A stretch of DNA of 64,000 nt from NCBI GenBank assembly GCA_039889245.1, contig JAZGVH010000002.1, positions 1,984,001 to 2,048,000 of the forward strand. Direction: 5' to 3'. Below, one piece after another: positions 13,309 through 26,383 of the stretch. Position numbers and translations under genes: made by a program. The notes beneath the pieces are model-generated. The model made no database searches. It worked only from the letters and a program-made list of their open reading frames with translations, and was not told the origin of the DNA. Position 1 is the first letter of the stretch, and each line of letters opens with the position of its first letter. The stretch comes from Dermatophilaceae bacterium Soc4.6. Lineage in GTDB: Bacteria > Actinomycetota > Actinomycetes > Actinomycetales > Dermatophilaceae.

Positions 13309-13440
13309 CTACTGGCGCAGGACGACGAGTCCGAGGACGCCGACGACGTAGAGCACGAGCACGGCGATGCTGTCGATCCCGAGGACGGCCTTACCGGAGA
13401 CGAGGGCAGCGAGCAGAAGCAGGACGGGCAGGGACGAAGG
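13309..13440 (-). other. Hydrophobic two-helix reading frame directly after the zinc-ribbon stop
   Basis: Immediately after the TGA of the small zinc-ribbon gene, and in the same frame, the minus strand encodes about 43 residues with two membrane-helix stretches: LPVLLLLAALVSG and GIDSIAVLVLYVVGVLGLVV, ending RQ-stop. No ATG, GTG or TTG occurs before the first helix; only CTG codons do. The options are a decayed fusion interrupted by TGA, readthrough, or a rare CTG start. The composition is too consistent with a membrane peptide to be random. Confidence 0.45.
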
Positions 13441-13635
13441 TCAGACCATGCCGACCCCGATCGGCACGTCGCGCTGCTTTCCGCAGTCGAGGCACTCCTG
13501 GAACCTCCCACCGGCCTCCGTACTGTTGGGGTAGCGGTGGGTCCTCCACCGATGCCAGATGTGCAGCCGACAGGTGAGGCGGCCCCGACGACGAACCTCT
13601 TGGCCTGGCTCCCTGTTCTGCGACGGCGCAACCAT
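13441..13635 (-). CDS. Small zinc-ribbon-like protein A, 64 aa
   Basis: Tiny protein with the pattern C-x5-H-x-W followed about 24 residues later by C-x2-C-G (CRLHIWHRW ... ECLDCGK). This resembles DUF1660-like zinc-ribbon proteins, and four ligands could bind one zinc ion. The N-terminal 22 residues are polar and basic. ATG at 13635 has no strong ribosome site, so the start is tentative. It is one of three similar genes on this strand within 1.5 kb. A hydrophobic frame follows in phase after its stop. Function is unknown. Confidence 0.55.
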   Translation of the reverse strand: MVAPSQNREPGQEVRRRGRLTCRLHIWHRWRTHRYPNSTEAGGRFQECLDCGKQRDVPIGVGMV

Positions 13636-13910
13636 CTCAGAAGGCTGGCAGGGGACCAACGGGCCGTCAAGGAAACCTGAAAGGCGCCTTTCCACCCCGA
13701 AGGGTGTTGGCGACACACTCCAGGTTGACTCAAAGCGGATGCTGCCATGCTCGAGTAGTGCCGGACCGCGGTGCCACGCTCCCACCGGGTGACGTGACAT
13801 CTCCCGTCTGTCAGAGCGTCGGCGGCATCTGCGGCAACGTCGACAGCGTCGGCCACCACGCCGTCGGCGGTTCCGGGGCCAGTGGCCGCCCGCCCGCGCT
13901 CGGCCCGGCC

Positions 13911-14051
13911 GCGTACAAGGGCCGCAACCCCGTCGAGCGCGGTTCACCACCTTCGAGCAGTGGCGGATCTTGGCCACCCGCTACGACAAGCCCGCCCAGA
14001 CCTACCGCGCCGGTGTCGTCCTACGCGCCGTCACCCTATGGCTCAACTCAA
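13911..14051 (+). pseudogene. IS5-family transposase C-terminal fragment, frameshifted
   Basis: AYKGRNPVER followed, after a one-base shift, by FTTFEQWRILATRYDK and YRAGVVLRAVTLWL reproduces the conserved end of IS5-type transposases (YKxRNxVERxFxxLKxWRxxATRYDK). The catalytic Glu of this region is within NPVER. The remainder of the element is missing. Confidence 0.75.
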
Positions 14052-14154
14052 CTGGAGACCCGCCCCCGTCGGTACCGGACCGGTGGGTGACGACCCCAGC
14101 CGCCCACGGGTGCATGAGTAGCGGGTCAGCGCAGGCCGCGCGGTCGCGGCCGGG

Positions 14155-14397
14155 TCAGCGTGTGCTCGGGTCGGCGCGGGTGGCGGGCCATGGATGGCGG
14201 AGGGTCCTCGCGCCGCCCCGCTCAGCCGCCGCCGCCCCACCCGGGAGGTGGGTACTGCTCGTGCTGCCCGCTGTCCCGGGTCTTCCCCCGGGCGTCTGAC
14301 CCGTCACCCGGTCGGCCACGGTGGCGGCGACGGCCGCAAGCAGACCCCAGACGAGGGCGATGACGATCACGACGGCCACACCGATCCATAACGACAC
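14155..14397 (-). CDS. Small single-helix membrane protein, 80 aa
   Basis: The N-terminus is one strongly hydrophobic helix (LWIGVAVVIVIALVWGLLAA, residues 3-22), followed by a polar Gly/Thr/Ser and Arg-rich cytoplasmic or extracytoplasmic tail of about 50 residues. The GTG start at 14397 is supported by GGAGGAGG about 5-7 nt upstream. It lies 35 bp after the stop of a zinc-ribbon gene and is probably co-transcribed with it. No family recognised. Confidence 0.6.
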   Translation of the reverse strand: MSLWIGVAVVIVIALVWGLLAAVAATVADRVTGQTPGGRPGTAGSTSSTHLPGGAAAAERGGARTLRHPWPATRADPSTR

Positions 14398-14432
14398 CAG
14401 CCACCTCCTCCGACCGGCACGAACACGTGCCG

Positions 14433-14606
14433 CTACAGGTACCCACCGATCCCCATCTGCGACTTGGCGCCGGGGCTGAGGCCGTCCGGCCGCTCCTTGA
14501 GGCACCGGGCGCAGCGTTCGTACCGGGTGCCGTCCGGGGTCCGGGCGACCTCCCAACAGTGGTGAATCTTCGTCCTGCACAACAGGGGCTTGCCGCGTGA
14601 CGCCAT
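14433..14606 (-). CDS. Small zinc-ribbon-like protein B, 57 aa
   Basis: 57-aa basic protein with LCRTKIHHCWEV near the N-terminus and ERCARCLKERPD in the middle: C-x4-H-x2-W and C-x2-C, the same spacing as its two neighbours. It probably binds one zinc ion. ATG at 14606 follows GAGGAGGA closely, a strong ribosome site. It lies upstream of the small membrane protein gene with a 35-bp gap. Possible roles are DNA or RNA binding or recruitment of the membrane partner; none is shown. Confidence 0.65.
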   Translation of the reverse strand: MASRGKPLLCRTKIHHCWEVARTPDGTRYERCARCLKERPDGLSPGAKSQMGIGGYL

Positions 14607-14756
14607 GACATCCTCCTCAAGCAGATCGGTTGGCCTGCGCCAACTTTGCAAACTTCCTACGATCCGTGGGCGACCGATCAGGTTGTCACCACTGGCTCTC
14701 CACCACTACCGGGGAACTCACTGTCGTCCGGGGGCAGGGCAGTTGGACCGCTCCAG

Positions 14757-14921
14757 TCAGCCGAGCGACGCCCACCCCATGCCGCGGCCGCCCATGTCCG
14801 AATCGACGGCATCAACCTTGCCGCAGGTGCGGCATGTGAGCAGCACCCTGCCGTCGGGCTGGCGGTCCCTGCGCCAGCGGTGGGTGATGACGAGACACAG
14901 CACTCGGCGGGCACGCCTCAT
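14757..14921 (-). CDS. Small zinc-ribbon-like protein C, 54 aa
   Basis: 54-aa protein starting with a basic stretch, then VLCLVITHRWRRDRQPDGR and LTCRTCGKVDAV: C-x4-H-x-W and C-x2-C-G. This is the best match of the three to the DUF1660-like pattern, in which a C...HxW loop precedes a CxxCG knuckle. GAGGAGG lies 4-5 nt before ATG 14921. It is separated from the next paralogue by 150 bp. Function unknown. Confidence 0.65.
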   Translation of the reverse strand: MRRARRVLCLVITHRWRRDRQPDGRVLLTCRTCGKVDAVDSDMGGRGMGWASLG

Positions 14922-15160
14922 CGGACCTCCTCGTGGTGCAGGTCCCCTGCGCTGTCCACGGTCCTCGGGCCGAAGAGGGAAGTCAAGGGGGGTGTGCACG
15001 TCGATGCCTCCGCGACGCCGTTGCTGGGCGGCGCTGAAGTGGCCTTTCGTGCCCAGCCGCTACTCCTGGACCTGCTTCCGCTCGCTGCGGCGGCGTGGGC
15101 GCTGCCGGTCGACGTCCCACCTCCCTGGCCGCTCCTCCCGGTCGGAGCTCGACGGCTGCA

Positions 15161-15882: not shown

Positions 15883-16190
15883 TTACCGAGTGGTGCCGAC
15901 CGAGGCGACAGCGTCGGCGTCGGCCAGACGCTGGGTGTAGCGGATATCGACGTACTGGACTCCTGTTGACGGATGGTCGGACTGGCGGATCAGAGCGGTC
16001 GTGTCGTGCCCGTGGTGCCGGGTCCGCAGGCCCATGTTGAGTGCGTCGAGGGCGAGGTCGGTGCGCGGTGAGGCCGACAGCTGCCACCCCACGACGCATC
16101 GGCTGACGACGTCGAGGATGAACGCGGCGTCGACCCATCCGGCGAAGGCCCGCACGTAGGTGGGGCTGACCGGAGTGTCCGCGATCGCTG
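15883..16190 (-). pseudogene. IS3-family OrfB integrase fragment
   Basis: The minus strand reads PTYVRAFAGWVDAAFILDVV, then SRCVVGWQLSASPRTDLALD, then QYVDIRYTQRLADADAVASV, the rve integrase core of IS3-family OrfB. The SDxGVQY catalytic block is disturbed (SDHPSTGVQY, a small insertion), and the last third, including the final Glu, is absent. It is non-functional. Confidence 0.8.
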
Positions 16191-26233: not shown

Positions 26234-26383
26234 ATGGACATCACCCTCCTCTACCTAGAGGACTGCCCCAACCGGATGGTCGCGGACGAATGGCTGACCG
26301 CCCTTGGCGCAGAGCGCCCCGGCTCTCGCGTGACTCATCATCTGGTCAACACCCGGGCAGAGGCGGTCCTCGACGATGCGTGA
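26234..26383 (+). CDS. Short thioredoxin-like protein, 49 aa, probably truncated
   Basis: The protein begins MDITLLYLEDCPN, the first strand and single Cys of small thioredoxin-like proteins found beside mercury and alkylmercury genes (the family usually reads LLYFxGCPNW and is about 90-110 aa). The frame stops after 49 residues, before the GSPT cis-Pro segment expected in the fold. It is therefore truncated or serves as a coupling leader for the next gene, whose ATG overlaps it by 8 nt. First gene of the MerR-controlled operon. Confidence 0.6.
   Translation: MDITLLYLEDCPNRMVADEWLTALGAERPGSRVTHHLVNTRAEAVLDDA

Follow-up and report, generated by a model that had tools for sequence, protein, structure and literature searches.

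The window analyzed here, a 64-kb stretch of DNA (G000:C2:1984001-2048000) in the 4.8-Mb genome of a soil bacterium, carries on its minus strand three small genes (A, B, and C) that are very probably genuine and zinc-ribbon-like. We give an even chance to their products being zinc-ribbon adaptors that stand alone, orphans related to a switch that seems not to have been described, in which ribbon proteins are linked to a PadR regulator. A small zinc-ribbon family with its own repressor and a recognizable DNA motif provides a handle on what induces it, what it targets, and whether zinc is required. Zinc binding and function of A, B, and C are predicted here from their sequences. The relevant features of the window are as follows.

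15886-16155, minus strand: integrase core (rve)-like fragment, 25.1 bits, below the Pfam cut-off of 32.6
14922-14987, minus strand: leader of A, with the ribosome-site-like sequence GAGGAGG
14757-14921, minus strand: A, a 54-aa ribbon protein (C-x4-H-x-W...C-x2-C) with a glycine-rich tail, DUF1660-like subfamily
14433-14606, minus strand: B, a 57-aa ribbon protein that stands alone and is related to the PadR-linked ribbons
14155-14397, minus strand: 80-aa frame with one hydrophobic stretch, a GTG start, and the ribosome-site-like sequence GGAGGAGG
13859-14065, no strand assigned: IS5-family transposase-like remnant, recognized by DNA similarity to plasmid records
13441-13635, minus strand: C, a 64-aa ribbon protein with the conserved sequence REPGQE..RR.GR..CRLH.WHRWR.HRYP
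13309-13440, minus strand: not a micro-protein gene but what is left of a Na+/Ca2+-exchanger gene, internally deleted and lacking a usable start codon

An earlier note on this DNA had pointed to three minus-strand ORFs of 54 to 64 aa with shared Cys/His/Trp spacing, and this description holds. C-x4/5-H-x-W and C-x2-C are common to A, B, and C, the C, H, W, C, and C positions are kept in their alignment, and all three are intact, each with all four candidate ligands. The six-frame ribbon pattern occurs three times in the 64-kb window, compared to a mean of 0.07 and a maximum of 1 in 60 roughly dinucleotide-preserving shuffles. Ribosome sites had also been claimed at three genes; by reading, ribosome-site-like sequences precede A, B, and the 14155-14397 frame, and none was seen in front of C. 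Codon usage is neutral (log-odds of -0.7 for A, 3.0 for B, and -0.4 for C), so that the case for genes rests on conservation.

A, B, and C represent three related families (profile comparisons gave 92.5% for B versus A and 95.5% for B versus C), the spread of which within the same bacterial family is patchy. A profile of the three rows finds matches in 37 of 149 genomes of this bacterial family (E ≤ 0.01); the frames found in L034 and L036 are, we assume, ClpX and unrelated to the ribbons, and the weakest matches are therefore not all members of the ribbon family. All three genomes of the same genus give a match. The host genome itself gives seven matches (E ≤ 10), of which five are strong, namely, A, B, C, and two paralogs, the B-type B2 and the C-type C2, which adjoin each other about 209 kb from the window. 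When the types are taken separately, A-type matches were found in 21 of 186 genomes and C-type matches in 6 of 186 genomes of the bacterial family (E ≤ 1e-3, four of them strong), while across the order the B-type profile found matches in 17 of 396 genomes (E ≤ 1e-4; 16 candidates were scored in each). A single genome, such as G021, can carry as many as four A-type copies, and the C-terminal tails that follow the ribbon in the A-type proteins of L054, L060, and L148 are strongly glycine-rich.

The Cys, His, Cys, and Cys residues are kept in 20/20 B rows, 6/6 A rows, and 3/4 C rows, these rows having been picked in part by a pattern that requires the same residues. The first Cys is replaced by Ser in the paralog C2. 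Sequence searches of PDB with the ribbons returned only weak, chance-like matches. Those to WW-domain chains (best value, 0.0044) were rejected as a hairpin shared by chance; residues 18 to 30 of the B-type protein P0002 contain a W-E-x-A-x-T-x-D-G-x-x-Y hairpin that resembles the start of a WW domain, probably by convergence.

The three genes evolve under constraint, and C does so strongly. The comparison of synonymous and non-synonymous changes proposed in the earlier note came out in favor of the ribbons, with dN/dS values below 1 throughout, at about 0.10 to 0.17 for C (two orthologs) and 0.26 to 0.55 for A and B. The individual dN and dS values were 0.14 and 1.46 (C versus G135), 0.25 and 1.49 (C versus G025), 0.28 and 0.76 (B versus G114), 0.33 and 1.14 (A versus G021), and 0.47 and 1.30 (A versus G135), while B versus G069 gave 0.21 and 0.38, a ratio of 0.55 that indicates fairly fast evolution. 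These are Nei-Gojobori estimates for short genes, given without error bars, and the comparison of C with C2 is saturated. Over 122 bases that comprise the leader of A and its first codons, identity to the same-genus genome G069 is 82%, in which the A-B pair is present with an intact B and a truncated A; apart from this pair, the order and pairing of the peptides expected by the earlier note are not conserved in relatives. Within 500 bases on either side of the C copies, similarity is confined to the ORF. Two ribbons within about 0.5 kb of each other were found in G097, G139, G236, and G222.

The truncated A of G069, the dN/dS of 0.55 for B in the same comparison, the neutral codon usage, and the debris around the ribbons could all be read as signs of decay, with the window ribbons as functionless paralogs on their way out. 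We regard this as very improbable, since A, B, and C are intact with all their ligands, C has a dN of 0.14 against a dS of 1.46 in G135, and intact stand-alone relatives of B occur in several genomes.

The connection to PadR comes from relatives located outside the window. In a comparison of neighbors across 21 regions, a small regulator present in 6 of them adjoins a protein, present in 8, that ends in a ribbon. At the B2 locus, the regulator is a PadR protein (PF03551, 34.5 bits against a cut-off of 27), and the locus is organized as follows.

L047:7099-8202 (G000:C2): PadR gene, N-domain-ribbon gene B2, and the divergent C-type ribbon gene C2, with a 44-base palindrome between

Among 37 distinct B-like ribbons (B-profile matches at E ≤ 1e-7, leaving out the six duplicate loci L089 to L094), at least 16 have a PadR gene within 1 kb upstream, a count that is a lower bound because many loci were collected with 1.5 kb of flank and one with 5 bases. 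PadR and an additional N-terminal domain are both present in 14 of the 37, B2 among them, and there the ribbon is the C-terminal part of the protein. The N-terminal domain, presumably helical by reading, has the signature LPxGxxRDRYRxExxAEL, and in 14 proteins it was matched by no Pfam family with E below 0.06. The profile of N-domain plus ribbon matched 4 of 396 genomes of the phylum, a weak negative given the 11 candidates per genome. Neither the PadR model built here nor the N-terminal-domain model, both seeded from these same PadR loci, has a hit in the window. Ribbons persist without the regulator, since G097 carries PadR, a ribbon, and an N-domain-ribbon protein where G032, with the same neighbors, has a single ribbon (loci L050 and L052). 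A tree built from 31 ribbons recovers A and C as supported clades, with PadR-linked and orphan B proteins intermingled (5 changes compared to a shuffled mean of 7.5, with 16 to 18 of 500 shuffles as low), although few columns went into it and 12 of its 28 inner branches are open.

Of 14 padR loci, 13 share an upstream DNA motif, CTAGGTAG, as a full palindrome or as a half. Six of them have a palindrome built around CTACCTAG-n-CTAGGTAG that is complete or nearly so, and seven have the half-site CCTAGGTAGA directly before the start codon, which by reading may resemble a -10 element placed just before the ATG. At the exception, L051, the PadR match is only partial. The exact palindrome pattern occurs in 12 of the 180 loci collected, corresponding to four distinct places. 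The octamer TAGGTAGA appears in 19 distinct contexts in the 1,053,085 bases collected, overlaps included; 17 of them have a padR start no more than 130 bases away and the others are in L110 and at window position 26250, in a sample that is not random, as the sequence was collected around ribbons. In G000, the ATG (8008) taken for C2 comes 36 bases after the end of the palindrome (L047:7928-7971), a second in-frame ATG being located at the edge of the palindrome, and 92 bases separate the palindrome from the padR start on the opposite strand.

The window ribbons have no such motif close in front. Matches with up to three mismatches number nine in the window against 3.6 expected, and the one at 13344-13356 has three mismatches and falls inside the exchanger remnant. 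The best window match, CTAGGTAGAGGAG at 26246-26258 with two mismatches, seems to be inside a coding frame, judging by reading of its flank.

Under the interpretation of A, B, and C as stand-alone adaptors, each ribbon protein would fold around one zinc ion and would work as a small adaptor. At the PadR loci, PadR would act as a repressor at the palindrome, with repression lifted by a ligand, a metal, or an oxidant, and the protein made of N-domain and ribbon would either pass a signal to PadR or be the output that PadR regulates. The ribbons of the window would be accessory genes amid insertion-sequence debris, devoid of PadR, N-terminal domain, and palindrome. We also considered a more integrated scheme in which PadR, the N-terminal domain, and the zinc ribbon form a one-operon switch. 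The ribbon would sense zinc or oxidants and free PadR from the palindrome, which would drive padR-B2 and C2 divergently, and the window ribbons would belong to the same circuit as additional outputs, as competitors, or as decoys. We put this scheme forward only tentatively. As the window lacks a PadR hit, an N-domain hit, and a close motif in front of its ribbons, these are linked to the switch by homology only.

The window ribbons are surrounded by insertion-sequence debris. The region 13859-14065 matches 97 plasmid records, and among the best five of these 97, four are annotated there as IS5 family transposase; a similar piece adjoins the A-B pair of G069. Two genes beside C2 (L047:8517-10972) are presumably an IS21-type transposase pair, and IS-like genes are also located near the ribbons of L054 and L151. 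Together with the patchy spread illustrated by C (6 of 186 genomes, four of them strong), the insertion-sequence remnants around the window ribbons are compatible with ribbons of phage or mobile-element origin, that is, DUF1660-like proteins that bind nucleic acids or modulate the host, once cargo and now accessory genes. DUF1660 (PF07874, "Prophage protein") and phrog_2670 likewise comprise small C-x4-H...C-x2-C proteins and are matched by A-type relatives. The earlier note had rightly named DUF1660 as a family to compare: the A-type relative L060 reaches the gathering cut-off of 21.4 bits with a score of 21.5 (another A-type relative, L021, falls just short with 20.3), and none of the three window proteins, A included, is listed for DUF1660 in Pfam at E ≤ 10. 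With phrog_2670, matches at E ≤ 0.01 were obtained for five of six A-type rows, A itself being the exception, and neither B nor C is matched by Pfam or NCBIfam. Other searches argue against this origin: B has no match in phage or plasmid records, C none in plasmid records, an A-type relative none in phage records, and the B- and A-type profiles none in viral contigs. In addition, many B relatives reside in a chromosomal PadR locus. A phage or mobile-element origin appears rather unlikely. We found nothing on DUF1660 in the openly licensed PMC literature, and the description of that family contains no link to PadR.

The earlier note had further proposed a ribbon and membrane-peptide pair repeated in tandem, which would tether the ribbon at the membrane. 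The first of the two peptides, 13309-13440, is pseudogene debris. This frame is the in-phase continuation of C past the TGA stop, and by reading there is no ATG, GTG, or TTG near its beginning, with two GTGs only deep inside. Its sequence falls into two pieces, separated by a missing stretch, that align with the C terminus of frames of 196 to 417 aa from related genomes and from elsewhere in G000; the one frame tested, L096, scores 92.9 bits with the Pfam sodium/calcium exchanger (cut-off, 24.9). The high coding score of the remnant (15.8) fits descent from an exchanger gene. The second peptide, 14155-14397, is an orphan frame. It has some match at E ≤ 0.1 in 125 of 149 family genomes, but among the matches listed none is a credible relative, the best non-self match (2.2e-4) having an internal stop and the others looking compositional.

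The proposed pairing is not kept in related genomes either. A hydrophobic frame follows closely behind 7 of 23 ribbons (20 regions), five of these frames being 134 to 1,094 aa long and only two short, those of L049 (69 aa) and L046 (106 aa). No copy of either window peptide was found behind the ribbon relatives examined. The ribosome-site-like sequence and hydrophobic stretch of the 14155-14397 frame, together with the 69-aa frame that lies 8 bases behind the ribbon of L049, would speak for a membrane pair. With exchanger debris that has no start codon in one position and neither peptide sequence behind the relatives, we rejected the pairing and give it next to no credence; in all likelihood, the ribbons have no membrane partner. 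What survives of the system envisaged in the earlier note is its zinc ribbons, which form families with dN/dS values below 1. A plausible micro-protein pair can arise from pseudogene debris behind a real small gene.

Several known systems resemble parts of this arrangement. PADLOC gave no support for an anti-phage defense system: five of the six proteins tested had no match, and the PadR protein of the B2 locus reached at best 3.1e-4 with PDC-M05A, which we read as a general winged-helix resemblance. Ruc (Rv0991c) is likewise a small actinobacterial protein composed of a zinc ribbon and a flexible tail (PMC7448276), and a role as redox-regulated small chaperones, converted to holdases by oxidation, could be imagined for A, B, and C, given their similar size and plan of a ribbon followed by a glycine-rich flexible tail. 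This is quite improbable. Ruc has four Cys ligands, a hydrophilic tail, and proteostasis neighbors (PMC7448276), in contrast to the three Cys and one His (Cys-His-Cys-Cys) of A, B, and C; our analysis provides no sequence link between Ruc and these proteins, and by reading no chaperone gene stood out among the neighbors listed.

The preferred reading, orphan relatives of a PadR-linked switch, finds parallels among PadR systems. No description of a ribbon-bearing PadR partner or of this palindrome was found in the openly licensed PMC literature, nor, by title, anything useful there on PadR with leaderless genes. By sequence, the N-terminal domain is not HAAS (PF22564, with a GxP motif), a candidate that we rejected with an hhalign probability of 11 to 12% and no HAAS hit in 14 proteins. 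In a search of 99 family genomes, PF22564 was matched in 48 but in none of the three same-genus genomes (G000, G025, and G069). The autoregulated repressors of the PadR family (PF03551) likewise have a PadR domain beside a presumed regulated gene. HAAS-PadR dyads have been proposed as an alternative to two-component systems and also combine a stand-alone PadR gene with a small neighboring protein in which a second domain comes after the N-terminal one; the partner described there carries multiple transmembrane segments or a Toastrack domain, whereas here it is a soluble-looking ribbon (PMC11237479). PadR is adjacent in these dyads, as it is in B2 and in 16 of the 37 B-like ribbons, while the ribbons of the window stand without it.
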